Shown one piece after another: positions 36,502-49,582 of a stretch of 59,601 nt of DNA. How positions within the stretch are numbered: position 1 is the first letter of the stretch; every line of letters starts with the position of its first letter. The translations under genes were made by a program, and so were the position numbers. The stretch is from Acidobacteriota bacterium (GTDB lineage: Bacteria; Acidobacteriota; Terriglobia; 20CM-2-55-15): positions 1 to 59,601 of the forward strand of contig JAJEEE010000001.1 in the NCBI GenBank assembly GCA_022821145.1, in the 5' to 3' direction. A model generated the notes under the pieces. It did no database searches, was not told where the DNA came from, and was given only the letters and a program-made list of their open reading frames with translations.

Positions 36502-36620
36502 ACGCACGATGCTGCATCGGCGATGCACATCATGTCAACGGTCGGGCGGGTCGATCGTCCTGCCATCGAACCGGCTGCGTCGTGTACGCTGTGTCATGCA
36601 GATTCTGTGATGCTGTGCGC

Positions 36621-36962
36621 ATGAAAAACATCACCGTATCCGTTGACGAAGAGACCCATCGGCTTGCGCGAATCCGAGCGGCGGAGTTGGAAACATCGGT
36701 GTCGGCATTGGTGCGCGACTACCTGAAGAACCTGGTTGCGAACCGCACCGGCGGCACGGCGTTGAACGAGCCGGACGTGGAGACGGAATCCGAACGTCGT
36801 CGCAGGATGTTGCGAGAGGTCATCGAGAAGATCACGGCCAACGGCGGTGGATTGCGCATGGCCGACAACCTGTCCCGCGAGGAACTGTACGACCGGGCCA
36901 GAGCCAGGACAGAGGCTCGGACGGCCGCCGCCGCTGAACGCGAAGACCTTACGCGCGGCTGA
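36621..36962 (+). CDS. Ribbon-helix-helix antitoxin of a VapBC-like pair
   Basis: 113 residues. MKNITVSVDEETHRLARIRA and ETSVSALVRDYLKNL form a ribbon-helix-helix DNA-binding domain; the acidic-basic C-terminal helix (residues ~50-110) would bind the toxin. A PIN-domain start follows 5 nt after its stop, the usual antitoxin-toxin spacing. The partner toxin is truncated, so this antitoxin is probably an orphan. Confidence 0.75.
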   Translation: MKNITVSVDEETHRLARIRAAELETSVSALVRDYLKNLVANRTGGTALNEPDVETESERRRRMLREVIEKITANGGGLRMADNLSREELYDRARARTEARTAAAAEREDLTRG

Positions 36963-36967
36963 GCGCC

Positions 36968-37190
36968 ATGCGCTACGTCGATACGAACGTGTTGTTGTAC
37001 GCGGTGAGCGCTCTGTCGGCGGAGGCGTGGCCCGGCCGCGATGTGCCGGTTCAGGGAAGCCTTCACGGAGGGCCGGTCCGGATGAGCGTGCTTCGCGCGT
37101 TCCTCACCGTGGTAAATCGACTATCCGCGTCAGTCGGGCCCCGTTTGGAGAAACCCTGTCGGAAGGCGCGTTGCAGTAGTCACGGGTGGT
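36968..37190 (+). pseudogene. vapC: Truncated VapC-type PIN-domain toxin
   Basis: The frame opens with MRYVDTNVLLYAVSA, the first strand of PIN-domain RNases with the metal-binding Asp at residue 4. After about residue 20 the sequence loses PIN character; a short VRMSVLRAFLTVV stretch may be a displaced piece of the SVQVLQEFYV region. The other acidic residues and the C-terminal helix are missing, and the open frame runs into antisense of the O-methyltransferase. The toxin is thus very likely inactive. Confidence 0.6.
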
Positions 37191-37227
37191 CGCCAACGCG
37201 AGCGACGGAAAGCGATATCGCCACGGC

Positions 37228-38226
37228 CTACCGGGCGACACCCTCGATGACGCTGATCGGCATGCGGGTCGGCGCCACCCGGGTCAGCTCCAGGCCGGCT
37301 TTTTCGTACAGCGTCCGATATTCGTCCACCGTCCGCTCTTTCCCTCCGTAGCACAGCATCATCAGGTCGAGCCACTTGCCGAAGTTGGGTTCGTTCCCGG
37401 TAGGAATGACGAACTCGACGACCAGCACCCGGCCCTTCGATCCGGCCGCCTTGCGGCAGTTGGCGAGGAACCGCACGGTGTTCTCGTCGTTCCAGTCGTG
37501 GACGACGTGACGCAGGATGTAGGCGTCCGCGCCGCGGGGGATCTCGTCCTCGAGGGCCGAGCCCGCGATCACCCGGAGCCGGGATCCGAGGCCGGCGGCT
37601 TCGACCTTCGCGCGCGCCCGTTCTGCGATGGGGGGCAATTCGAACAGGACGCCCTTCAGGTGATCGACCTGCTCGAGCAGGGTGATCAGCATCGAGCCGT
37701 CGGCGCCGCCCACGTCGACCACTTCGTCGAAGCCCGTGAAGTCGTAGGCCTCGATCATCGGCAGGGTCTCCGCGCCGTGATGGCCGAACATGGCGTCGGA
37801 GAAGAGCGCGCCGCGGTCCGGATGCCGCGTCATGTAGTCGAACACGGGCATTCCGTGCGCGCGGTCGAACGCCGCTTCGCCCGTCCGGGCCGAATGCAGC
37901 AGGCAGCCCCACGCCTCGTACAGCTCCCGGCCGTGCATCCGGGCGTAACCCATCCCGCCGGACGTGCCCAACGCCTCGGCCAGGGGCGTCAGGCCGAAAC
38001 GCCCCTCCGCGTCCTCGGCGTAGACCCCGACGCTGGCCAGCGCACGCAGGATCCGGTACAGCGCGCCGCCGTGGGCGCCCGCCTCGGCCGCCAACTCGTC
38101 GGCCGTCTTCGGGGCCTCGGCCAGGCGTCCGGTGATGTCCAGTTCCGCCGCGACGAACAGGGCCTGGGTGGTCCAGTAGCCGCGAATCATGTCGTTCAAC
38201 TGCTTTCTGAGATCGGCGTCGGGCAA
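37228..38226 (-). CDS. O-methyltransferase (COMT / acetylserotonin methyltransferase-like)
   Basis: About 332 residues. Dimerisation/winged-helix domain first (GYWTTQALFVAAELDITGRL, ALYRILRALASVGVY), then the SAM domain with VVDVGGADGSMLITLLEQ and LRHVVHDWNDENTVRFL, where His is the catalytic base position. It methylates hydroxyls of small aromatic or polyketide-type substrates. I prefer TTG 38226, which has GGAGGA five nt upstream, over ATG 38271, which is embedded in the TATAAT -10 box. Confidence 0.85.
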   Translation of the reverse strand: MPDADLRKQLNDMIRGYWTTQALFVAAELDITGRLAEAPKTADELAAEAGAHGGALYRILRALASVGVYAEDAEGRFGLTPLAEALGTSGGMGYARMHGRELYEAWGCLLHSARTGEAAFDRAHGMPVFDYMTRHPDRGALFSDAMFGHHGAETLPMIEAYDFTGFDEVVDVGGADGSMLITLLEQVDHLKGVLFELPPIAERARAKVEAAGLGSRLRVIAGSALEDEIPRGADAYILRHVVHDWNDENTVRFLANCRKAAGSKGRVLVVEFVIPTGNEPNFGKWLDLMMLCYGGKERTVDEYRTLYEKAGLELTRVAPTRMPISVIEGVAR

Positions 38227-38269
38227 TCGTGTCCTCCAGTGTTCGTTATCCGCTGCCGTGGGGGCCGCC

Positions 38270-38317
38270 ATTATATCGGGTTCGGGCGCGGCTTCCCGCC
38301 CGGCGCCCTGCTAGAAT
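38270..38317. promoter_or_regulatory. Divergent -10 elements between O-methyltransferase and LeuC-type genes
   Basis: TATAAT on the minus strand (38275-38270) faces the O-methyltransferase. TAGAAT on the plus strand (38312-38317) ends 6 nt before ATG 38324, a leaderless geometry. Neither has a convincing -35, which could mean activator dependence. Confidence 0.45.
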
Positions 38318-38323
38318 CGCTCC

Positions 38324-39580
38324 ATGGGCATGACGATCGCCGAGAAGATCCTGGCGCGGACCTCCGGGTCGTCGTCGGTGTCTCCGGGGCAGATCGTGGA
38401 CGCCTTCCCGGACCTGGTCATGAGCCACACGGCCACGTGGCGTTCCGTCGACGTGATGGAGCGCGTGGGCGCGACGAAGCTCCACGATCCGGACCGGATC
38501 GCCATCGTCCTGGACCACATCGCCCCGGCCAAGACCGAGAAGCACGCCGCCGACCAGCAGCGGAGCCGGGAGTTCGCCCGGAAGTACGGCATCCGCAAGT
38601 TCTATGACGTCGACGCCGGGATCGCGCACCTCGTCCTGATGGAGGCGGGGCACGTCGCGCCGGGGGACCTGATCGTCGGCACCGACTCCCACTGCACGAT
38701 CTACGGCAGTCTGGGCGCGCTCGGCACCGGGATCGGCTACACCGAGGTCGCCTCGGTCTGGCTGACCGGCAAGCTGTGGATGAAGGTCCCGCGAACCACG
38801 CGCATCGATCTCTCGGGGCGCTTCGGGCCGGGAGTCTACGCCAAGGACCTGATGCTCCACCTGATCGGACGGCTGGGCGCGGACGGCTGCACCTACGAGT
38901 CGGTCGAGTTCTACGGCGCGCCGATGTCGGAGATGAGCGTTTCCGAACGCATGACCATGACGAACCTGGCCATGGAGATGGGCGTCAAGTGCGCGTTCAC
39001 GCCTCCCGACGCGAAGACCGAGGCCTACCTGGCCGAGCGGCTGGACGGACGGGCGTACGCCGGCATCGCCGCCGACGCCGACGCGGTCTTTTCCCGGACG
39101 GTCGACGTCGACCTGGCGGCGCTGGACCCGATGGTGGCGTGCCCCAGCCAGGTCGACAACGTCCGGGCCGTCGGCGAGGTGGCGGGCACGCGGCTGGACC
39201 AGGTGTTCCTGGGCTCCTGCGCGAACGCCAAGTACGAGGACCTGGCCGTGGCCGCGCGCATCCTCGACGGCAAGACCATCGATCCCGGCGTCCGTTTCAT
39301 CATCACACCGGGCTCCCGGCGGATCATGCTGGAGGCCATGCGCACGGGCGTCCTGCAGACCCTGATCGAGAGCGGGGGCACGCTGACCAACCCCGGTTGC
39401 GGGGCGTGCGCCGGAGACGGCGGCGTCATGGCCGACGGCGAGGTCAGCCTGTCCACGGCCAACCGGAACTTCCTGGGACGGATGGGCAGCCGCGAGTCGC
39501 GGATCTATCTCTCCAGTCCGGCCACGGCGGCCGCCTCCGCGCTGACCGGTGTCATATCGGACCCGCGGGAAATCGTCTAA
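38324..39580 (+). CDS. leuC: Aconitase-family large subunit, LeuC type (isopropylmalate/homoaconitate dehydratase)
   Basis: 418 residues, the length of the archaeal-type LeuC2/HacA group. [4Fe-4S] ligands are Cys299 (GSCANAKYEDL) and Cys359/Cys362 (NPGCGACAGDGGV). IVGTDSHCTIYG and TANRNFLGRMGS are conserved. GSCAN replaces the usual GSCTN. It isomerises 2-isopropylmalate or a related 2-hydroxy acid together with the small subunit encoded 6 nt downstream. ATG 38330 is an alternative start. No leuA or leuB is nearby, so the leucine assignment is tentative; homoaconitate, citramalate or dimethylmalate are options. Confidence 0.82.
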   Translation: MGMTIAEKILARTSGSSSVSPGQIVDAFPDLVMSHTATWRSVDVMERVGATKLHDPDRIAIVLDHIAPAKTEKHAADQQRSREFARKYGIRKFYDVDAGIAHLVLMEAGHVAPGDLIVGTDSHCTIYGSLGALGTGIGYTEVASVWLTGKLWMKVPRTTRIDLSGRFGPGVYAKDLMLHLIGRLGADGCTYESVEFYGAPMSEMSVSERMTMTNLAMEMGVKCAFTPPDAKTEAYLAERLDGRAYAGIAADADAVFSRTVDVDLAALDPMVACPSQVDNVRAVGEVAGTRLDQVFLGSCANAKYEDLAVAARILDGKTIDPGVRFIITPGSRRIMLEAMRTGVLQTLIESGGTLTNPGCGACAGDGGVMADGEVSLSTANRNFLGRMGSRESRIYLSSPATAAASALTGVISDPREIV

Positions 39581-39586
39581 AGTATT

Positions 39587-40081
39587 TTGAATAAGTTAAT
39601 TGAAGGCCGAGTCTTCAAGTTCGGCGACAACATAAACTCCGACATTATCATCCCGGGCCGCTACCTCATCCACATCGATCCCGACACGCTGGCCGCGCAT
39701 GCGTTCGAGGTCCTGGGGGATGACTATCCGGAACGGCTGCGGGGCTTCGACATCCTGGCGGCGGGCCGGAACTTCGGCTGCGGCAGCGCGCGCGAGCAGG
39801 CGGCGACGGCGTTGATCGGCCTGGGTTTCCGGGCCGTCGTGGCCGTCTCGTTCGCGCGGACCTTCTATCGCAACGCCATCAACGCGGGGTTGCCGATCGC
39901 CGAGTGCCCCGCGCTGGTCGAGGCCGTGTCGGAGGGCGACGCGGTTTCGATCGACCTGGAGGCCGGCGCCGCGCGCGCCGGCGATGCGGTCTACGAGTTC
40001 CCGCGAGTCCCCGGCTCCGTCCGCCGGATTCTGGAGGCCGGGGGGCTGGCCGCGTATCTCAAGGCGCACCATCGGGAGTAG
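39587..40081 (+). CDS. leuD: Aconitase-family small subunit, LeuD type
   Basis: 164 residues from TTG 39587. GRVFKFGDNINSDIIIPGRY and GRNFGCGSAREQAATALIGL are the swivelling-domain substrate-recognition motifs; SFARTFYRNAINAGLP is the conserved loop. It completes the active site of the LeuC-type subunit upstream. Its 3' end converges on the LeuC-like gene of the minus-strand operon with a 16-nt gap. Confidence 0.88.
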   Translation: MNKLIEGRVFKFGDNINSDIIIPGRYLIHIDPDTLAAHAFEVLGDDYPERLRGFDILAAGRNFGCGSAREQAATALIGLGFRAVVAVSFARTFYRNAINAGLPIAECPALVEAVSEGDAVSIDLEAGAARAGDAVYEFPRVPGSVRRILEAGGLAAYLKAHHRE

Positions 40082-40097: not shown

Positions 40098-41345
40098 TCA
40101 ACCCCGGGGATCGGCGATGCGGCCGGTGGCGGCCGAGACGGCGACGGTATCGGTGGAGGCCAGGAAGTGGCGGGCCTCGGGGCTCCCGTTCCGGCCGGGA
40201 AAGTTCCGGGCCTGGTTGGAGATCATCGTCTCGCCGGCGCACATCGCGCCCATGTTGACGGCCTGGTTCGACCCGGCGCCGGGCGGGCAGACGATGGCCC
40301 CCGCGTCGACGAGCGCCTCGATCAGGCCCTCCCGCAACGCGGCCTTGAAGATGCCGCGGTTGGCCGGCACGACCTGGAGGCGCACGCCCGGGTGGACGCT
40401 CCGGCCGTCCAGCCGCCGGACGAGCGTCCGGATGTCCCTCAACCGGCCGCCCGTGCTGCCGCCGACCTCGGCGATGTCGATGGGCGTGCCCTGGACCTCG
40501 CGGACGGGACGGACGTTCCCCACGGTCGGGGGACACGCGACCTGCGGCCCGTCGATCGCGGCCAGGTCGATTCGGACGATGTCGGCGTACCGGCAGCCGG
40601 GATCGTTCCGGACCAGCTCGAAGCCGGCCCGGGCATGCTCGCGCGCGAACGCCTCGGTCTTCGCGTCCGGGTCGATGAACGCCGCCTTCGCCCCCAGGTC
40701 GATCGACATCAGGGGGAACAGGCAACGGTCCTCGATCGACAGGCCCTCGACGTAGTCTCCGGCGTATTCCAGGGCCTGGTAGATGGCCGAGTCCTCGCCC
40801 AGGGACCCGACGACGTGCTGGGCCGCGTCGCGGGGCGTCACGCCCTCGTGCGGCGCGCCTTCCAGGCGCACCTGGACGGTTTCCGGCGCGCGGAACCAGG
40901 CCTTGGAGTGGGCGAAACCCATCGCCGCCATCGAGTTGTTGCCGACGCCGGTGGCGAAGGCGCCCAGCGCCCCGTGGATCGGCGTGTGGGAGTCGCAGCC
41001 GATGATGACCTGGCCGGGCGCCCACAGCCCGCTCTCGATGATCACGTGGTGCAGGCTTCCGCTGCCGGCGTCGAAGACGCGGATGCCGTGCTCGGCGGCG
41101 AACTCCCGCACGCGGTGGAGCCGCCGCGCCCCCTCCTCGGTCGGTGCGGAGAAGTTGTGATCGAAGACGAACACGATCCGCGACGGGTCGTGGACGGCGG
41201 CCCCGTCGAGCTCTTCCCGGAAGACGCGCGTCACGAAGCTTGCGCTGAGGTCGTGCATCACCATCAGGTCCACGTCCGCCACGACCACATCGCCGGGTTC
41301 GACACGGGGGCGTCGGCCGGCGCGAGCCAGGATCTTCTCGATCAT
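40098..41345 (-). CDS. Aconitase-family (LeuC-like) protein lacking the three cluster cysteines
   Basis: 415 residues, clearly LeuC-fold: IEKILARAGRR start, GCDSHTPIHGALGAFATGVG, NFPGRNGSPEAR and a final ATGRIADP. At the positions of the cluster ligands it has Ser297 (GGSTGG), Ala357 and Asn360 (PPGAGSN); the 60- and 3-residue spacings equal those of Cys299/359/362 in the plus-strand paralogue, so the replacement is exact. Other cysteines lie close by (IVCPP, AMCAGE) and could bind metal differently. Last gene of the five-gene operon. ATG 41345 matches the family start; ATG 41363 would overlap the upstream gene by 16 nt. Reaction unknown. Confidence 0.85.
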   Translation of the reverse strand: MIEKILARAGRRPRVEPGDVVVADVDLMVMHDLSASFVTRVFREELDGAAVHDPSRIVFVFDHNFSAPTEEGARRLHRVREFAAEHGIRVFDAGSGSLHHVIIESGLWAPGQVIIGCDSHTPIHGALGAFATGVGNNSMAAMGFAHSKAWFRAPETVQVRLEGAPHEGVTPRDAAQHVVGSLGEDSAIYQALEYAGDYVEGLSIEDRCLFPLMSIDLGAKAAFIDPDAKTEAFAREHARAGFELVRNDPGCRYADIVRIDLAAIDGPQVACPPTVGNVRPVREVQGTPIDIAEVGGSTGGRLRDIRTLVRRLDGRSVHPGVRLQVVPANRGIFKAALREGLIEALVDAGAIVCPPGAGSNQAVNMGAMCAGETMISNQARNFPGRNGSPEARHFLASTDTVAVSAATGRIADPRG

Positions 41346-41347
41346 GT

Positions 41348-42331
41348 TCACAACGGCGTCCATCCCGCGGCGTGGGCCCGGCAGGTGTCGCCCCAGATCC
41401 AGTGGCGGTTTCCGGCGCCGCCCACGGCGTGGATCCCCGCCAGGGCGCCCGGGCGCACTTGGCCGCCGCCGATGACGCGATACGGATACGAGCCGGAGAG
41501 ATCCTCGATGACGGCGTCGGGGCCGGCCTCGCCGGGCGGCCGGCCGAGGAGGGCCTCGAAACGGTCCAGGAGCGGCCGGATGCGTTCGCCGTCACCGTGC
41601 GTTCGCGAGATCCGCGTCCAGTGGCCCCGATACTCCACGGCGAGACTGACCGAGAACTCGTCGGCCAGCGACCGGCCGCCGGCGGGCGCGGGCGACTGTC
41701 CGGCATGTCCGATCAGAACGATCGCGTCCTCGGCCCCGGCCCGGCGCAGGCCGTGCTCGATCCGGCCCACCAGCGCGTGGTCGATGCGTCCCTCTCCGTC
41801 CGCGATCTCGGATTCCAGGACGACGCGGGCCATGGCCATGGACTTCCGTCGCATGGCCGTTTCGGTATCGTCCGCCGCCGGTCCCGCCCACGCTCCGGCG
41901 TCCACGTCGACCAGCTCGAGGTGCGAGTTCATCAAACCGGCATGCATGTCGAAAGGAAATCCGGCCTCGTCGAGGAGGCCGATCCGAGTCCAGCCGCGCT
42001 CGGAGGCCAGCGCTTCCAGGGTCTTGCCGAAGTCCTTTCCGGGGCGGATGTCCGTGATCGGCGTCACGGAACGGATCCACGGGTATACGCGGGGCGAGAG
42101 CCCGCAGATCAGGGTCGCCGGCGCATCGACGGCGACGACAAGCAGGGCGCGGTTGAAGTAGGGCATGAAGTTCTGGAGCGACCGGGCGGGGTTGGACCTC
42201 CACAGGTCGGAATAGACGACCCCGGCCGGAATTCCGAGCCCCCCGAGGATCTCCCGGAAACCGTCGACGCGGGCTTCGAACACCCCCGGCGGAATCTCGG
42301 CGCGGTCCCAGGCGATGAGCCCCCGTTTCAG
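41348..42331 (-). CDS. M24/creatinase-fold protein without metal ligands, C-terminally short
   Basis: 328 codons from CTG 42331, which has a perfect AAGGAGG six nt upstream and directly follows the stop of the preceding gene; GTG 42283 is the first conventional start but would cut the N-terminal domain. The creatinase N-terminal domain is visible (FEARVDGFREILGGLGIPAG, VVAVDAPATLICGLS). In the pita-bread domain the region that normally reads DxG...DitRT is SLAVEYRGHWTRISRT, so both Asp ligands are lost, and no His-Glu-Glu triad follows. Probably a non-metal hydrolase relative or a partner subunit of the M24 protein encoded upstream. Confidence 0.75.
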   Translation of the reverse strand: MKRGLIAWDRAEIPPGVFEARVDGFREILGGLGIPAGVVYSDLWRSNPARSLQNFMPYFNRALLVVAVDAPATLICGLSPRVYPWIRSVTPITDIRPGKDFGKTLEALASERGWTRIGLLDEAGFPFDMHAGLMNSHLELVDVDAGAWAGPAADDTETAMRRKSMAMARVVLESEIADGEGRIDHALVGRIEHGLRRAGAEDAIVLIGHAGQSPAPAGGRSLADEFSVSLAVEYRGHWTRISRTHGDGERIRPLLDRFEALLGRPPGEAGPDAVIEDLSGSYPYRVIGGGQVRPGALAGIHAVGGAGNRHWIWGDTCRAHAAGWTPL

Positions 42332-42332
42332 A

Positions 42333-43460
42333 TCAGGCCTCCTTGACGATGAGCGTCTTCTCGGTCGCGTTGAGCGATTCGCAACCGTCGGACGTTACCA
42401 GGAGCGTGTCGCCGAACACCATGTATCCCGACAGTGGCAGGTACGTGTTCGGATGGGCGATCAACACCATGGATTCGCGGACGACGCAGTCCACGTCCTC
42501 CAGCACGTAGGGATTCTCGTCCGGGTACAGGCCGAGGTTGTGGCCCCGGACGCGCGTGTACTTCGGCGTCGTGTATTCGCCGAAGCCGGCGGCCCGGAAG
42601 ACGTCGTTCTGGACGCGCGCGACGTCCGCGATGTTGACGCCGGGCTTCAGGAAGTCCTGGGCGGCCTGCTGCGCGTCCCGGAAGATCTCGAACGATCGCC
42701 GTTGCGCGTCGGACGGCTCGCCGACGACCAGCGTCCGGCAGATCTGGGCGAAGTAGCCGTTCACCTGGGGGCTCAGCTCGGTCGTGACGTTGTCCCCTCG
42801 CTGTAGCCGCCGTTCGGTCGGGGGATGCATCCCGAACACCTCGGTCCGCCCCGAGCCGATCAGCATGAAGTTGTCCTCGGCGCCCTGAGTCTTCAGGAAC
42901 GCCTCGACCTCGGCGACCAGCTCGTACTCGGCGATGCCGACCCGCGCCGCGTCGACGAACACCCGGTAACCGAGGTCGGCGAGGCGGGCCGCGCGCCGCA
43001 CTTCCCGGATCTCGTCCGGCGTCTTCACCTGCCGCAGCGACTCGATGGGCCGTGTGGCCGAAGCGGCCGGATGGTGCGAGACGGCGCCGATGGTCCGCGC
43101 CGAGCGCGTCTCCATGAACTCGAGTCCCGCCACGCCGATCCGCCGGCCTTCGGCCCCCGCCATCAGCCCCCGCAACCCGCGGTCGAAGTCGCCGTCGAGA
43201 CGGACGTCTTCGAAACCGGCGTCCGCGAGCGCGTCGCGATCCCAAGGGTGCGTCGTCAGGATCGTCACGCCGCCGGAGGTGGGGTCCAGGAGGGCCGCGG
43301 CGTGCGGCCCGAAGAAGCTGTAGTTGACGACGGTCCGGAAGAAATCCTTCCGCCAACCGTGGCCGTAGAGGAGCAGCCGGTCCCAGCCGGACTCGCCGGC
43401 GAGTTCCTGGAGCTGTCGATGGCGCGGCGCGTTCAACATGGGCAGCACGTCGGCCATCAT
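42333..43460 (-). CDS. M24-family creatinase/ectoine-hydrolase-like protein with degenerate metal site
   Basis: 375 residues, with N-terminal creatinase domain and a full pita-bread fold. RQVKTPDEIREVRRAARLAD marks the domain junction. Metal-ligand positions read Glu and Gln (TTELSPQVNGYFAQICRT), His kept (RGHNLGLYPDENPYV), His for Glu (MVLIAHPNTYLP) and Ser for Glu (LLVTSDGCESL). Such loss of ligands is known in creatinase and ectoine hydrolase, M24 relatives that hydrolyse C-N bonds without metal. The ATG at 43460 overlaps the stop of the cyclodeaminase-like gene. A hydrolase of a non-peptide amide or amidine is inferred. Confidence 0.82.
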   Translation of the reverse strand: MMADVLPMLNAPRHRQLQELAGESGWDRLLLYGHGWRKDFFRTVVNYSFFGPHAAALLDPTSGGVTILTTHPWDRDALADAGFEDVRLDGDFDRGLRGLMAGAEGRRIGVAGLEFMETRSARTIGAVSHHPAASATRPIESLRQVKTPDEIREVRRAARLADLGYRVFVDAARVGIAEYELVAEVEAFLKTQGAEDNFMLIGSGRTEVFGMHPPTERRLQRGDNVTTELSPQVNGYFAQICRTLVVGEPSDAQRRSFEIFRDAQQAAQDFLKPGVNIADVARVQNDVFRAAGFGEYTTPKYTRVRGHNLGLYPDENPYVLEDVDCVVRESMVLIAHPNTYLPLSGYMVFGDTLLVTSDGCESLNATEKTLIVKEA

Positions 43461-44533
43461 GGCGAGACGTCCTCCAGGAACCACCCGGTCGGCAACTCGC
43501 GGCCCAGGCCGAGCTCCCGGGCCTTCTCCAGAACCGCGGCCCCCACGGCGGCGAACTGCGTCCCCGCTCCGGTGTTGTTGTTGAACAACGTGATCTGATC
43601 GGGCGAGGTCCGGCCCCGGACCCGGCCGGCGAGCAGGTCCTGAATCTCGTGGATCGCGTCCCATTCGACGACGCCGCTCTGGGCGGCGTCCCAAATGTCG
43701 GGAGACCGGTCGTTCCGGGCCACTTCCTTGGAGTGGACGACGTACACGTCCGCGCGGCGGATCGTCTCGTCGTCGATCTCGCGGCGCTTGTTGGTGTGGT
43801 CCGAACCGCCGATCGACGCGACGTACATGCCCGGCTCCAGCCACGCCCCGTCGAAGACCGGGTCCCAGGAGGCGGTCGCCGCCTGGACGCAGTCGCTGCC
43901 TTCGACGGCGGCGCGCGCCGAGTCGACGGCGTCGACGCGTCTGTCCAGCCGCCGCGACCACTCTTGGGCGAAGCGGTGCCGGCGCTCCGGGTTCGGGCTG
44001 AACACCTTGATCCGCTCCAGCTCGAACAGGGACGCCAGGAACTCCAGGTGCGCGCCGGCCTGCCACCCGCTCCCGAACAACCCCAGCACGCGGGGGCCCT
44101 CCGGCGCCAGGTGCCGGGCGCCGACGGCGCTCAGGGCGGCCACCCGCATCTTCTGGATGACCCCGTCGGGCATGATCGCCACAGGCTCGATGCGTTCGAC
44201 GTCGAACAGGAGGACCAGGCCGCAATAGCGGCCGCCTTCCGCGACGGGCAGAATCCGGCGGCGCTTGACGCCGCCGGTGTAGGCGTGCCCGGCCATGTCC
44301 GAGGTGAGGCGCAGGGCCCAGACCCCGGTCGAGAGGCTGCCGCCTTCCTGGGTCTTCATACGGTACCGGAAGCCGGGGTGTTCCCTCGATTCCGCCGGCA
44401 GATACGTCTGCGTGCGCGGCCGGTTGACGGCGGCGCCTTCGGCCAGCTCGCGGTAGATGCGTTCGGTCGACCGGATGGCGGCTTCCGGCGTCAGGGAGCG
44501 CTCGACCTCCGCGTTGGTCAGCAGCAGCGTCAT
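43457..44533 (-). CDS. Ornithine cyclodeaminase / mu-crystallin family protein
   Basis: 358 residues. The Rossmann motif is VLGLFGSGWQAGAHLEFL, followed by IKVFSPNPERRHRFAQEW; the N-terminal dimer domain has GFRYRMKTQEGG with the substrate-binding Arg/Lys region. Members are NAD(P)-dependent ketimine or imine reductases, alanine or ornithine dehydrogenases/cyclodeaminases, and EutC of hydroxyectoine degradation. Start overlaps the LeuD-like stop by 4 nt and its stop overlaps the M24 start by 4 nt. Likely acts on an imine or amino acid intermediate of the operon pathway. Confidence 0.85.
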   Translation of the reverse strand: MTLLLTNAEVERSLTPEAAIRSTERIYRELAEGAAVNRPRTQTYLPAESREHPGFRYRMKTQEGGSLSTGVWALRLTSDMAGHAYTGGVKRRRILPVAEGGRYCGLVLLFDVERIEPVAIMPDGVIQKMRVAALSAVGARHLAPEGPRVLGLFGSGWQAGAHLEFLASLFELERIKVFSPNPERRHRFAQEWSRRLDRRVDAVDSARAAVEGSDCVQAATASWDPVFDGAWLEPGMYVASIGGSDHTNKRREIDDETIRRADVYVVHSKEVARNDRSPDIWDAAQSGVVEWDAIHEIQDLLAGRVRGRTSPDQITLFNNNTGAGTQFAAVGAAVLEKARELGLGRELPTGWFLEDVSP

Positions 44534-45066
44534 CGCACGGACATCAGAGGGTTCGACTCCGACTTCAGGTAGGGGATCAGGCCGCCGGCCCGGAGCATGT
44601 CGAGCAGGAACGGGGGCGGGGGGCTGGTTCGGAGCGCGCGTCCGGTGCGCGCGTTCCGCACCTCGCCGTTGGCGATGTCGACATGGAGACGGTCCCCGGG
44701 TTCGACGAAGGCGTGGATCCCCGGCGCTTCGAGGATGGGCAACCCGACCTCGTGGCCGTTCCGGTAGAACGTGCGCGAGAACCGCTCCGCGACGACGGCG
44801 CCGATGCCGGTGGCCGCGAGCGCCTTGGGCGCCGCGGCCCGGCCGGAGGAGCATCCGAAATTCCGGCCGGCGACCAGGATGTCGCCCGGCCGGACCCGGC
44901 GGGGGAAGTCCGGATCGAGCGACTCCAGGCAGTGCCGCGCCATCTCGTCGAACGTCTTCCATACCAGGCGCGTCGGCGTGATGGCGTCGGTCGGGACGTT
45001 GTGGCCGAACTTCCAGCATGCGCCTTCGAAGACCAGGGTTGCCGGGTTGTTGGACGCGGGGTTCAT
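44530..45066 (-). CDS. Aconitase-family small subunit (LeuD-like), operon partner of the cysteine-less LeuC-like protein
   Basis: 178 residues. WKFGHNVPTDAITPTRLVW and GRNFGCSSGRAAAPKALAA correspond to the swivelling-domain motifs of LeuD, and RFSRTFYRNGHEVGLPILEA to the conserved loop. The Ser-Ser-Gly-Arg motif for substrate carboxylate binding is kept, so the active-site half is intact although the partner lacks cluster cysteines. First gene of the five-gene minus-strand operon. The promoter was not recognised; a repeat fragment starts 35 nt upstream. Confidence 0.85.
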   Translation of the reverse strand: MNPASNNPATLVFEGACWKFGHNVPTDAITPTRLVWKTFDEMARHCLESLDPDFPRRVRPGDILVAGRNFGCSSGRAAAPKALAATGIGAVVAERFSRTFYRNGHEVGLPILEAPGIHAFVEPGDRLHVDIANGEVRNARTGRALRTSPPPPFLLDMLRAGGLIPYLKSESNPLMSVR

Positions 45067-45239: not shown

Positions 45240-46880
45240 CTAGAACAGCGAACCGTCATCGTCCTCGCCCATCATGGCGCGGCGCACGAGGGGAATCGGC
45301 GGCGACCCGAATCCGAGAAACGTGTCGTGGAACTCGCGCCACGCCGCCCGGCCCCCGCGCGAAGCCGTCCAGTCCTCCCGGAGCTTCCGGATCATCAGCT
45401 TGCCCATGGTGTAGTTCAGATACGCCGGGTCGAAGGTGCCGCGGGCCGCCTGTTGCCGCGCGTTGCCCGGATCCTGGAACGCCTTTTCGCGAAACATCCG
45501 CTCCGAGTCGGCGACCGTCATGCGGCCCGTGTGCAGCCCGATCGCGGACAGGAAACGCACGTTGCGGAGCAGGGCGTTCCGGAGCTGACCGATGCGCGCG
45601 CCGGCGTCGCCGGCCGCGAAGCCGGCTTCGGCCATCAGCTCCTCGGCGTAGTGCGCCCATCCCTCGGCGAAGGCGTAGGTGCCGAAGACCCGGCCGATGG
45701 CGGATCGCACGCGGTGCGCGTGCAGGAACTGCAGGAAATGTCCCGGCCACACCTCGTGAGCCGAAATGTAGAGCAGGTCGCCGGCCGCCGGCACGTACGC
45801 GTTCCGGTCCGACTCGGACCAGGACGGATCCGGCGGCGCGATGTAGTAGGTCGACGGCAGATCATCCTCGTAGGGGCCCGGGATGTCGATGTAGGCCGCG
45901 TTCCACCGCATGTGCGGCGGCGATTCCCCCACGCGCGCCTCTTCCGTTCCGGGTATGGACACCAGGCCCTCCGCGACGACGAACGCCTTCAACTCGGTCA
46001 GTTGCCGCGCGGCGGCGGCGACGGGGCCCTCCACGGGCTTCTCGGCGTGGGCGCGCGCGAGGCACGCGGGGATCGACTCGCCGGGCGCGTAGGCCGCGCA
46101 CGCCTCCGCCAGCGCCGCGAGGTTGCGCTCCAGGTCCGCCCGGCCCGCGGCCTCGAGCGCGTCCAGCCCCACGTCGACGCGCTCGGTGGCCTGGAGCATC
46201 TCCGCGAAGCGTTCCGCGCCCATGGCGAACGCGTCGGTCGCGTCGGCTTCCAGCGATTCGAACCACGCGTCCAGCGCCCGCATGGCCGTCACGGCCGCGT
46301 CGTTCGCCGCCCGGAACTCCGACTGGAGGGCCGCGTCCTCCACGGCCTCGTACGCCGTGACCACATCCGTTGCGTAGTAGTCGGCGAGTCCGCCGAAGAC
46401 CGTGCGCGCCAGGCCGACGAAGGTGCGCGGCATGGGCGTCGCGAGGTTCGCCCGTATGTGGCCCGCCGCGGCGGGCACCTCGCGCGCGTACCGGACATAG
46501 GCGCGGAGCCGGACTTCCAGCGGCGCGTAGTCGCGGGACACGTAGACGTCCGGCGCCAGCGCCCACGCATAGAAGTTGGGGTGGGTGAAGGGCTGCTCCA
46601 TGGTCGTCCGCCAGAACAGCTCGCCGTCGATCATGGCGATCAGGTAGTCGCGCTCGAAGCCCTGCCGCGCATCGAGCCCATCCGGGGAAAACGACTCCGC
46701 GCGCTCCCGCTCCGCGGCCAATCGCGCCGACTCGGCCGCCAGGCCGTCGCGGCTCCAGTCCGGCAAACGGCCGTCGAACTCGTGGCGGCCCTCGAAGACG
46801 CCCCAGTGGGGTTGGGCCGCGAACGTGCGATCGATGTAGTCCTGGACGAAAGCGTCCCATTCCGCAGAACTTGTCGCCAT
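45240..46880 (-). CDS. DUF885 family protein (putative metallohydrolase)
   Basis: 546 residues from ATG 46880 with AAAGGA upstream; an upstream open extension to 47072 lacks support. Characteristic DUF885 motifs are SAHEVWPGHFLQFLHA near residue 378, an HExxPGH zinc-site form, and FAEGWAHYAEELMAEAG near 405. Helix-rich throughout. DUF885 proteins are predicted M32-like carboxypeptidases. No signal peptide is evident in the short form. Divergent from the ABC importer. Confidence 0.85.
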   Translation of the reverse strand: MATSSAEWDAFVQDYIDRTFAAQPHWGVFEGRHEFDGRLPDWSRDGLAAESARLAAERERAESFSPDGLDARQGFERDYLIAMIDGELFWRTTMEQPFTHPNFYAWALAPDVYVSRDYAPLEVRLRAYVRYAREVPAAAGHIRANLATPMPRTFVGLARTVFGGLADYYATDVVTAYEAVEDAALQSEFRAANDAAVTAMRALDAWFESLEADATDAFAMGAERFAEMLQATERVDVGLDALEAAGRADLERNLAALAEACAAYAPGESIPACLARAHAEKPVEGPVAAAARQLTELKAFVVAEGLVSIPGTEEARVGESPPHMRWNAAYIDIPGPYEDDLPSTYYIAPPDPSWSESDRNAYVPAAGDLLYISAHEVWPGHFLQFLHAHRVRSAIGRVFGTYAFAEGWAHYAEELMAEAGFAAGDAGARIGQLRNALLRNVRFLSAIGLHTGRMTVADSERMFREKAFQDPGNARQQAARGTFDPAYLNYTMGKLMIRKLREDWTASRGGRAAWREFHDTFLGFGSPPIPLVRRAMMGEDDDGSLF

Positions 46881-47046
46881 GGTGTCCTTTTCCGGGGCGG
46901 CCGTCCGCCGGTCGTTGTCCTCCAGATCGGCGTGGACGGGGACCATCGCGAGGCCCGGCATCCTCGGACGCCGATGGTACATCGGGGGAGCGGCCATCCT
47001 CAACGACTCGACGCGATTAGTCGTGTCCGGCCGCGCCGGAACCGGG

Positions 47047-47052
47047 TACGAT
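47047..47052 (+). promoter_or_regulatory. Possible -10 element for the ABC importer operon
   Basis: TACGAT ends 7 nt before an in-frame GTG at 47060, the same geometry as other leaderless-type starts here. If used, the lipoprotein would have 10 extra N-terminal residues before MKRV. Confidence 0.3.
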
Positions 47053-47089
47053 GGACGCCGTGACGCCACCATCCGGTTCGGGACATCTC

Positions 47090-48070
47090 ATGAAGCGAGT
47101 CGCCGCCTTCGCGGCCGCCGCCGCGCTCCTGGGCTGCGCGAGGGGCGAGCCGGAGGCCGCGGACGGCGGCCGAGCGTTCACGCTCGGGCTGATCCCGGGC
47201 GCGCAGGGCTTCGTCGACTTCGTCATGGACGGGCAGGGCATCTATCGGCAGTTCGACCTGCTTCCGGAGAAACGCACCTCGCTGAACCCGCCGACGCTGC
47301 ACCTGATGCTCGCCGAGCGACAGGTCGACATCGGCTTTGCGGGCTTCACGACGATGGCCACGGCGCGCTCGGAAGGGCGCGACACGATCGTGATCGGCGG
47401 CGTGTTCTCTCCCGTCAACGCCGTTTTCGTGCCATACGACTCGCCGCTGGAAACGCTGGACGATCTCGACGGAATGCGGTTGGGGATCTTCGGCGGCCCG
47501 GGCTCGGCGACGTTCGCGTTTCTGGCCGTCGTCGCCCGCAACGCTTACGGCCTGGACCTGTTCGACGACGTCGAGATCGTCACGGCGCCGGGACCGGCCC
47601 TGATCGAGCTGCTCGAGCGCGGCGACCTGGACGCCGCGCTACTGGGGACCATCGAGTCGATCGAGATGCAGGCCGAGGACCGGTTCCGCGTCCTGGCGGA
47701 CCTCAGCGGGGAATACCGCGCGATGGGCGCCGGCCGGGCGCCGGCCCACGTGACCATCGCGACCAACGAGGCGTTCGCCGCGGCGCGGCCCGACGTCGTG
47801 CGGGACTACCTGCGCGCCTACTACGCGGCGATCGAACACATCGACCGGAATCCCGAGGTCTGGGACGCGTTCGCCGATTCCATCGGGATCGAGAACCCGG
47901 CGTCGCGGGCGATGCTGAGGGAGCGGATGGGGCCCAACCTGATCGATTCCTGGGACGCGCCGCAGATCGCGGTTCAGAACGAGTACCTGCGCCGGGTCAA
48001 CGAGATCATCGGCGAGAACATCGTCGGACGCGTGCCGGAAGACCTGATCCGCGATGAGCTGGCTCCATAG
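47090..48070 (+). CDS. ABC transporter substrate-binding lipoprotein (NMT1/SsuA type)
   Basis: 326 residues from ATG 47090. Lipobox LLGC with lipidated Cys16. TLGLIPGAQGFVDFVMDGQGIYRQF, LAERQVDIGFAGFTTMATAR and LGIFGGPGSATFAFL follow the NMT1/THI5-SsuA fold that captures sulfonates, nitrate, thiamine precursors or aromatic acids. Stop overlaps the permease start by 17 nt. Substrate not determinable; aliphatic sulfonates would fit the sulfur-assimilation genes elsewhere in the window. Confidence 0.88.
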   Translation: MKRVAAFAAAAALLGCARGEPEAADGGRAFTLGLIPGAQGFVDFVMDGQGIYRQFDLLPEKRTSLNPPTLHLMLAERQVDIGFAGFTTMATARSEGRDTIVIGGVFSPVNAVFVPYDSPLETLDDLDGMRLGIFGGPGSATFAFLAVVARNAYGLDLFDDVEIVTAPGPALIELLERGDLDAALLGTIESIEMQAEDRFRVLADLSGEYRAMGAGRAPAHVTIATNEAFAAARPDVVRDYLRAYYAAIEHIDRNPEVWDAFADSIGIENPASRAMLRERMGPNLIDSWDAPQIAVQNEYLRRVNEIIGENIVGRVPEDLIRDELAP

Positions 48071-48812
48071 GTCCGCCGCCGCCCTGGTTCTCCTGGCGCT
48101 CTGGCTGGTCCTGGCGCTCCTGCTGCCCAACTTCGTTCCGGGACCCGTCCCGGTGATCGGGACCATGTGGGGCAACATCGTGTCGGGGGAGGCCCTCGAG
48201 CACCTGGTCCCGACGCTCGTGCGCGTCGGTTTCGGCCTGTCGCTGACCATGGTCCTGGGGACGCTCATCGGCGCCGTCATGGGGCTGTCGCGCGTCGGGG
48301 AGCTGTACCTGGACTCGTTCGTGATGGTCGGGCTCACGGTCCCGGCCATCGTGTACGGCATCATCTGCGTGATCTGGCTCGGGGTCACCGACGCGGCCGC
48401 CGTGGCGGCCATCGGGCTGGCCGCCTTTCCCGCCGTCGCCATCAGCGTCTGGAAGGGCATCAAGGGGATCGACGCCGAGCTGGTCGCCATGGGCCGCGCG
48501 TTCCGGCTCTCGCGCCGCGAGATCGTGCAGAAGGTGATCTTCCCGCAACTGCTCCCGCACATGCTCGCGGCGCTGCGCTACGCCCTGGGCATCTGCTGGA
48601 AGATATGCACGACGGTCGAGTTGATCGGGATGCCGAACGGAGTGGGTTATCAGCTCAACTTCTGGTTCGGGCTGTTCTCGATGGAGCAGGTCTTCGCGTG
48701 GACGCTGCTGTTCCTGCTGGTGATGTTCGCGATCGAGTACGCGGCGTTCAAACCCATCGAACGGCACATGACCCGGTGGCGGGGCGACGCGCCGCTGCGG
48801 CTGGCCGTATGA
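48054..48812 (+). CDS. ABC transporter permease (SsuC/TauC type)
   Basis: 252 residues, six hydrophobic segments. EAA loop: AIGLAAFPAVAISVWKGIKG and AELVAMGRAFRLSRREIVQK, the latter with the conserved G in the coupling helix. Typical length for BPD_transp_1 permeases of the nitrate/sulfonate/taurine family. The TGA overlaps the ATPase ATG. Confidence 0.9.
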   Translation: MSWLHRSAAALVLLALWLVLALLLPNFVPGPVPVIGTMWGNIVSGEALEHLVPTLVRVGFGLSLTMVLGTLIGAVMGLSRVGELYLDSFVMVGLTVPAIVYGIICVIWLGVTDAAAVAAIGLAAFPAVAISVWKGIKGIDAELVAMGRAFRLSRREIVQKVIFPQLLPHMLAALRYALGICWKICTTVELIGMPNGVGYQLNFWFGLFSMEQVFAWTLLFLLVMFAIEYAAFKPIERHMTRWRGDAPLRLAV

Positions 48813-49582
48813 GCTCGATCTCCCTGCGCGGCGTCTCGAAGACCTTCCCGCGGCCGGACGGAACGGCGCTGGACGTGCTCGGCGGCGTCAGCTTCGAGGC
48901 GCCGGACGGCAGCTTCAGCGCGATTCTGGGCCCGTCGGGTTGCGGAAAGTCGACGATTCTCGGCTTGATCGCGGGCCTGGACCATCCCACCTCGGGCGCC
49001 ATCCTGGTGGACGGGCGCCCCGTGACGGGCGCCGCGCCGCGAATCGGGCTGGTCTTCCAAAGGCCGCGCCTGCTGCAGTGGCGGCGCCTCGGCGACAACG
49101 TCATGCTGCCCATCGAGCGTGAATACAGCCGGGACGAGCGGGAGTCGCGGGCCCGCCGGTATCTGGCGTTGGTCGGCCTGGAGGGGTACGAGGACTACTA
49201 TCCGGCCCAGTTGTCGGGCGGCATGCAACAGCGGGCGGCCATTGCGCGGGCCCTGGCCATCGAGCCGGACATCCTGCTGATGGACGAGCCGTTCAGCGGA
49301 CTCGACGAGATGACCGCCCGACGGATGCGCGAGGAACTCGTTCGCGTCTGGCGCGAGACCGGAAAGACCATCGTCTTCGTCACCCACAGCATCGGCGAGG
49401 CCGTCTTCCTGTCGCAGCAGGTCCTGATGATCTGCGCCAAGCCCGCGGCCGTGCGGCGGACGGCCTCGATCGATCTCGCCTATCCCCGCGCATACGGCGA
49501 TCCCGCGATGTTCGAGATCGAAACCGGGTTGACCCGGGAATTCCTGGCGATGACGGAGAAACGGACGGTGTCCGATGGCTGA
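48809..49582 (+). CDS. ABC transporter ATP-binding protein (SsuB/TauB type)
   Basis: 257 residues. Walker A GPSGCGKST, Q-loop VFQRPRLLQWRR, signature LSGGMQQRAAIARAL, Walker B ILLMDEPFSGLD, H-loop VTHS. The GLDEMTARRMREELVRVWRETGK region is typical of the sulfonate/nitrate group. Its stop overlaps the DinB-like gene by 8 nt, so that gene belongs to the same transcript. Confidence 0.93.
   Translation: MSSISLRGVSKTFPRPDGTALDVLGGVSFEAPDGSFSAILGPSGCGKSTILGLIAGLDHPTSGAILVDGRPVTGAAPRIGLVFQRPRLLQWRRLGDNVMLPIEREYSRDERESRARRYLALVGLEGYEDYYPAQLSGGMQQRAAIARALAIEPDILLMDEPFSGLDEMTARRMREELVRVWRETGKTIVFVTHSIGEAVFLSQQVLMICAKPAAVRRTASIDLAYPRAYGDPAMFEIETGLTREFLAMTEKRTVSDG

Follow-up and report, generated by a model that had tools for sequence, protein, structure and literature searches.

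The 59,601-nucleotide stretch of DNA analysed here (the window; contig C74 of an Acidobacteriota genome of 4.2 Mb) carries a five-gene operon whose aconitase-type large subunit, here called LeuC*, has lost all three cysteine ligands of the [4Fe-4S] cluster. For LeuC* and its small subunit LeuD*, the sequences suggest an aconitase relative working without the usual cluster in a pathway for a nitrogen-containing acid. In the reading we prefer, to which we assign a probability of roughly 40%, LeuC*/LeuD* would be an active enzyme of the classical LeuC/aconitase branch devoid of an Fe-S cluster. The operon would belong to an undescribed pathway that degrades a nitrogen-containing carboxylic acid taken up by the cell; there the cluster-free LeuC*/LeuD* lyase/isomerase would feed a reductase of the cyclodeaminase family, and a split M24-type enzyme and a normal isomerase would also take part.

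The aconitase superfamily is characterised by its Fe-S cluster, which even aconitase X (AcnX) retains. A conserved branch without the ligands but with the acid-base residues would test how far the aconitase fold works without iron-sulfur chemistry. Furthermore, the operon flags a pathway, and the five genes together with the paralogous pair LeuC2/LeuD2 provide a handle for finding its substrate. Automatic annotation as 3-isopropylmalate dehydratase seems to be misleading for the LeuC*/LeuD* genes.

The operon and the altered cluster site of LeuC*

The operon lies on the minus strand from position 45066 to 40098 in the order LeuD*, cyclodeaminase-family gene, M24a, M24b, LeuC*. LeuD* (178 amino acids, 44530-45066) has the sequence ATGA at 44530-44533 in common with the gene of an ornithine cyclodeaminase/mu-crystallin family protein (358 amino acids, 43457-44533), which in turn overlaps by 4 bases with M24a (375 amino acids, M24/prolidase fold, 42333-43460). 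M24a stops at 42333, and its degenerate partner M24b (about 327 amino acids, 41348-42331) most likely starts with a CTG codon at 42331, because the orthologues start at the same residue. The 3' end of M24b abuts or runs into LeuC* (421 amino acids, 40098-41363), which may instead start at Met7 (41345). A previous sequence-only reading had described these as five overlapping or abutting genes forming one functional unit. The former is borne out by the coordinates with the ATGA and 4-base overlaps, and the latter is supported as well. Facing the operon on the plus strand (38324-40081) is the cysteine-bearing paralogue LeuC2 (418 amino acids, 38324-39580) with its small subunit partner LeuD2 (164 amino acids, 39587-40081, TIGR02087 169.9 bits).

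Ser303, Ala363 and Asn366 of LeuC* (codons at 40455-40457, 40275-40277 and 40266-40268, minus strand) align with the three cysteines of the IPMI and homoaconitase large subunits of M. jannaschii, at the positions of the aconitase ligands Cys358, Cys421 and Cys424. Counted from Met7, the same residues are Ser297, Ala357 and Asn360. Under these numbers they had already been recognised as standing in place of Cys299, Cys359 and Cys362 of LeuC2, with identical spacings of 60 and 3 in both proteins; the spacings are correct and the alignment to the solved M. jannaschii structures confirms the replacement. The Ser/Ala/Asn triad was invariant in all 13 LeuC* orthologues covering the sites, none of which had the cysteines restored, whereas 38 of 38 other LeuC-like proteins contained the three cysteines. 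The 13 LeuC* proteins grouped as a single clade (support 100/100) in a 51-sequence tree, on a stem of 1.49 changes per site. Compared with G001, a congeneric sister genome of the window, dN/dS was 0.19 for LeuC*, 0.16 for the cyclodeaminase-family gene, 0.22 for M24b and 0.26 for the part of M24a compared. The invariance of the triad in 13 species and the dN/dS of 0.19 indicate that the ligand replacement is old, fixed and constrained; on the same grounds pseudogene decay and assembly error were rejected.

Numbers and roles of aconitase residues are given after PMC8184944 and general knowledge. Conserved in the LeuC* clade are the Asp68-His69 pair, His105 (aconitase His147), Glu199 (Glu262), Asp124-Ser125-His126 (Asp165-Ser166-His167) and the arginines of the RNFPGR motif (Arg447, Arg452). 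LeuC* thus possesses the Asp-His pairs, the DSH motif and the RNFxGR arginines by which an IPMI/homoaconitase large subunit is recognised. In LeuD*, the loop GRNFGCSSGRA keeps the equivalents of aconitase Ser642 and Arg644, and its GCSSGR part is retained throughout the clade, in agreement with the earlier statement that the small subunit keeps its substrate motifs. LeuD* scored 154.7 bits with TIGR02087 (cut-off 108.95), which together with the active-site serine and arginine places it among the LeuD/DmdB small subunits, and it aligned to the M. jannaschii IPMI small subunit (3vba) with an E-value of 1.7e-49.

LeuC* matched PF00330 (222 bits) and exceeded the cut-offs of NF001614 (398.8 bits, cut-off 385) and TIGR01343 (387.5, cut-off 385.7), but remained below those of TIGR02086 (391.9, cut-off 410.15) and of all equivalogs. 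The AlphaFold model of LeuC* (pLDDT 86) matched homoaconitase/IPMI large subunits with a Z score of 51 (4kp2: 51.6), compared to 37 for aconitase and 18.9 for AcnX. LeuC*/LeuD* share with IPMI and homoaconitase (LeuCD, HacAB; 4nqy, 4kp2, 3vba) the fold, the two-subunit layout, the Asp-His pairs, the arginine clamps and the serine and arginine of the small subunit. They differ from them in the absence of the three [4Fe-4S] ligands, in the replacement of the Asn446 equivalent, which LeuC* lacks, and in operon partners unlike those of leucine or lysine synthesis. The window's genome encodes a separate LeuC and an aconitase on other contigs, so that leucine synthesis and the citric acid cycle should depend on neither pair; a role in leucine synthesis was dropped.

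AcnX (cis-3-hydroxyproline dehydratase, phosphomevalonate dehydratase) resembles LeuC* in belonging to the aconitase superfamily and in having an altered cluster site. It holds its Fe-S cluster with a cysteine set of its own, one of which is placed at the His147 position (PMC8184944). LeuC* is far nearer to LeuC by the Z scores given above and has none of the AcnX cysteines: it carries His105, Ala363 and Asn366 where type I AcnX has cysteine (His147/Cys421/Cys424 positions). With matches to PF00330 only and to no AcnX family, an assignment to AcnX was rejected altogether.

Conservation of the gene set and its other members

Of 399 genomes of the class, 13, belonging to three families, contained an orthologue of LeuC* with at least 64% identity; the next proteins showed at most 45% identity. 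The synteny is conserved in relatives: in ten of the 13 genomes a single contig carries all five genes in unchanged order, with LeuD* truncated at the end of the contig in one of them. Contig ends also break up the run in G001 and G374, and G010 has the module in two parts, one comprising LeuD* and the cyclodeaminase-family gene, the other M24a-M24b-LeuC*. M24a was present in 13 of 349 class genomes sampled and, judged on counts alone, co-occurs with LeuC*, which 12 of these 13 contain as well. The remaining assembly (G007) is 85% complete and has M24a at a contig end. LeuC2 orthologues were detected in 12 of the 13 LeuC* genomes, in eight of them near LeuC*, and were absent from all four related genomes without LeuC*. 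LeuC2/LeuD2, which the earlier description did not count as part of the unit, belong to the co-occurring set of the operon.

In a sample of the whole phylum Acidobacteriota only relatives of 40-42% identity were found, all with three cysteines. Among 398 Pseudomonadota genomes, a sample containing no positive control, neither LeuC* (E < 1e-90) nor M24a (E < 1e-50) was detected. Vibrio matches resembling a partial loss of ligands turned out in pairwise alignment to be ordinary aconitase sequences with a gap shift, and plasmid-encoded LeuC relatives of Cupriavidus, Ancylobacter, Azospirillum, Burkholderia, Variovorax and Hydrogenophaga all keep the cysteines. A LeuC-like subgroup on Azospirillum and Variovorax plasmids (L064, L066; 6001-7236), also with cysteines, shows DGH instead of DSH and LNVRGR instead of RNFxGR; it adjoins a gene of the isocitrate lyase/PEP mutase family and a branched-chain ABC importer. 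In the literature searched, mostly non-subscription papers, we found no description of a LeuC group without cluster ligands and no LeuC group with the Ser/Ala/Asn pattern and a defined role.

The cyclodeaminase-family protein matched PF02423 with 140 bits (cut-off 24) and stayed far below the cut-offs of all NCBIfam equivalogs, including EutC (TIGR02992, 101 bits, cut-off 471.65). The solved structures closest to it, along almost its entire sequence, are those of Delta1-pyrroline-2-carboxylate reductase (6t3e, E 2.2e-35) and the iminosuccinate reductase BhcD, from which group it differs by fitting no equivalog and by a stretch of its own, KRRRxLPVA, conserved specifically in the clade. Judging from these relatives, the protein is probably an imine reductase. 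A cyclodeaminase-family gene with 38% identity to that of the window occurs on plasmid pHS1 of Sodalis praecaptivus (L077, 6421-9056), divergent from an MmgE/PrpD gene, a further case of these two families occurring side by side. A short inverted M24a fragment on contig C154 of G009 (L046, 4477-4623), close to the cyclodeaminase-family gene at its upstream end, is probably an assembly artefact.

M24a matched PF00557 (116.5 bits, cut-off 23) and aligned to creatinase (1chm) with an E-value of 7.7e-19. In an alignment to 1pv9, four of the five prolidase metal ligands are replaced by Glu, Gln, His and Gly, the equivalent of His280 alone being kept, and the orthologues all show the same pattern. 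The loss of metal ligands proposed for the M24 proteins thus holds for M24a. It did not resemble ectoine hydrolase DoeA (NF038259 61.2 bits, cut-off 575; TIGR02993 31.5, cut-off 613). M24b gave no Pfam or NCBIfam match in profile searches, and its homology to M24a is based on profile comparison (E 1.9e-12; BLASTP E 5e-6), strongest in the N-terminal half; an AlphaFold model at pLDDT 30 was not used. Creatinase_N was matched by 5 of 13 M24b orthologues, and in several genomes M24b has only about 240 residues. Of the two M24-like genes claimed before, M24a is therefore recognised by Pfam, M24b only by its comparison with M24a and the Creatinase_N matches. M24a shares with creatinase and ectoine hydrolase the M24 fold and the loss of the protease metal ligands. 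Unlike these enzymes it always adjoins a second degenerate M24 partner, and M24a and M24b most likely form one heteromer.

The M24a/M24b pair is also present without LeuC* on Neorhizobium galegae plasmids, together with a caprolactamase-like hydantoinase pair, an NMT1-type importer and an Amidohydro_2 protein. A second M24a-M24b copy in G298 (L085, contig C162, 525-2680) has no adjacent LeuC* and is located near an NMT1-type binding protein and LeuC2/LeuD2. The sister M24a on contig C181 of G001 (L049, 1052-2152) contains one in-frame TAG in its TTELSP motif with the rest of the frame intact, either a sequencing error or early decay.

Cofactor and function of LeuC*/LeuD*

In the preferred reading LeuC*/LeuD* would be a heterodimer of aconitase fold from which the [4Fe-4S] cluster has disappeared. 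It would use the LeuD* serine as base, Asp68-His69, His105, Asp124 and His126, and the arginines as carboxylate clamps to shift a proton or eliminate a leaving group (water, ammonia) on an amino- or hydroxy-carboxylate. The resulting enamine or imine would be reduced by the cyclodeaminase-family enzyme, the M24a/M24b heteromer would cleave a C-N bond, and LeuC2/LeuD2, with a normal cluster, would catalyse a different isomerase/hydratase reaction within this pathway. A precedent for the transfer from LeuC*/LeuD* to the reductase is type I AcnX, an atypical dehydratase of the aconitase superfamily whose imine product is passed to a reductase (PMC5144071), but AcnX keeps an Fe-S cluster (PMC8184944). 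The heterodimer, its catalysis, the substrate class, the order of steps and the lack of any metal are what we infer. In aconitase, the iron of the cluster binds the substrate. We know of no precedent for hydratase chemistry without cluster iron, and this counts against catalysis by a cluster-free LeuC*/LeuD*.

The metal-free state is also called into question by His106 and Cys123, two clade-specific invariant residues at which another metal site is possible. We consider it somewhat unlikely that LeuC*/LeuD* binds a different cofactor, for instance one Fe, Zn or Mn ion or an atypical cluster, in an AcnX-like departure from aconitase. Candidate holders would be residues such as His106, Cys123, Asp124, His126 and Glu299. 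Three of these (His106, Cys123 and Glu299) do not vary within the clade and are seldom seen in LeuC proteins outside it, and the same is true of Asn370 and Asn392. The AcnX site, with a cluster cysteine at the His147 position, was itself first read as mononuclear iron (PMC8184944; PMC5144071). The only invariant cysteines of LeuC*, however, are Cys123 and Cys277, the latter common in normal LeuC, which makes a cluster of the usual type unlikely.

IRP-type aconitase relatives are known for a cluster-free, non-catalytic role. By analogy LeuC*/LeuD* might be a pseudoenzyme, retained once the catalytic cluster had gone, that acts as a scaffold or regulator or binds a substrate, perhaps as a partner of LeuC2/LeuD2. 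Such a role would fit the disappearance of the three ligands together with the Asn446 equivalent, and also the presence of LeuC2/LeuD2 in 12 of the 13 LeuC* genomes. But a scaffold would not need the acid-base and carboxylate-binding residues, which are invariant in LeuC* as are those of the small subunit, and the gene layout implies cotranscription of LeuC* with LeuD*, not with LeuC2. We regard this explanation as unlikely.

Neighbouring genes and the class of substrate

In eight loci the gene immediately upstream of LeuD* encodes an MFS carrier of the lactate/oxalate-formate type. A LigY/LigJ-like hydrolase (E 7e-120 to solved LigY 5vn5; E 1e-67 to 4-oxalomesaconate hydratase 2gwg) and an NMT1-type importer come after the operon in G084 and G245, and in G245 a LigK-like aldolase follows them. 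Related NMT1 importers and MmgE/PrpD proteins adjoin M24a-M24b-LeuC* in G010, where the MmgE/PrpD protein is closest to iminodisuccinate epimerase, and LeuC2/LeuD2 in G148. Altogether, the vicinity of the module contains an NMT1-type importer or binding protein in G010, G084, G245, G148, G298 and Neorhizobium. GntR/FCD-type (FCD) regulators accompany the operon in G097 and LeuC2 in G298.

These importers, FCD regulators and LigY/LigJ-like, LigK-like and MmgE/PrpD proteins point to the uptake and degradation of a carboxylic acid, not to a compatible solute. Because the neighbours differ between genomes and none is universal, our confidence in this is moderate. It is the cyclodeaminase-family and M24 genes that suggest nitrogen in the substrate. 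The undescribed route for a nitrogen-containing acid put forward in the sequence-only reading is accordingly plausible, but its alternative of a compatible solute is not supported: the ectoine hydrolase and EutC models were far below their cut-offs, so that ectoine use was dropped, and the neighbours fit uptake and breakdown better. That the operon makes a small molecule (e.g. an amino-polycarboxylate or another natural product), as cyclodeaminase-family enzymes such as SbnB and lysine cyclodeaminase do elsewhere, is very unlikely despite an O-methyltransferase nearby (37228-38271), as this gene is not conserved in the loci examined, no synthetase or carrier-protein gene was found there, and the recurrent neighbours are uptake systems, FCD regulators and LigY/LigJ-like and LigK-like enzymes.

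In the window an NMT1-type ABC importer (binding protein, permease and ATPase by Pfam) is encoded on the plus strand at 47051-49582. Its binding protein had no close match among the binding proteins compared, and the importer may be part of the pathway. Directly upstream of LeuD*, where other families carry the MFS carrier, the window has a DUF885 gene (45240-47072, minus strand). On the other side, at 36620-37351 (plus strand), a VapB-like antitoxin frame is followed by a short PIN-like start (MRYVDTNVLLYAVS) which soon loses the look of the family, by eye possibly a broken toxin-antitoxin pair.
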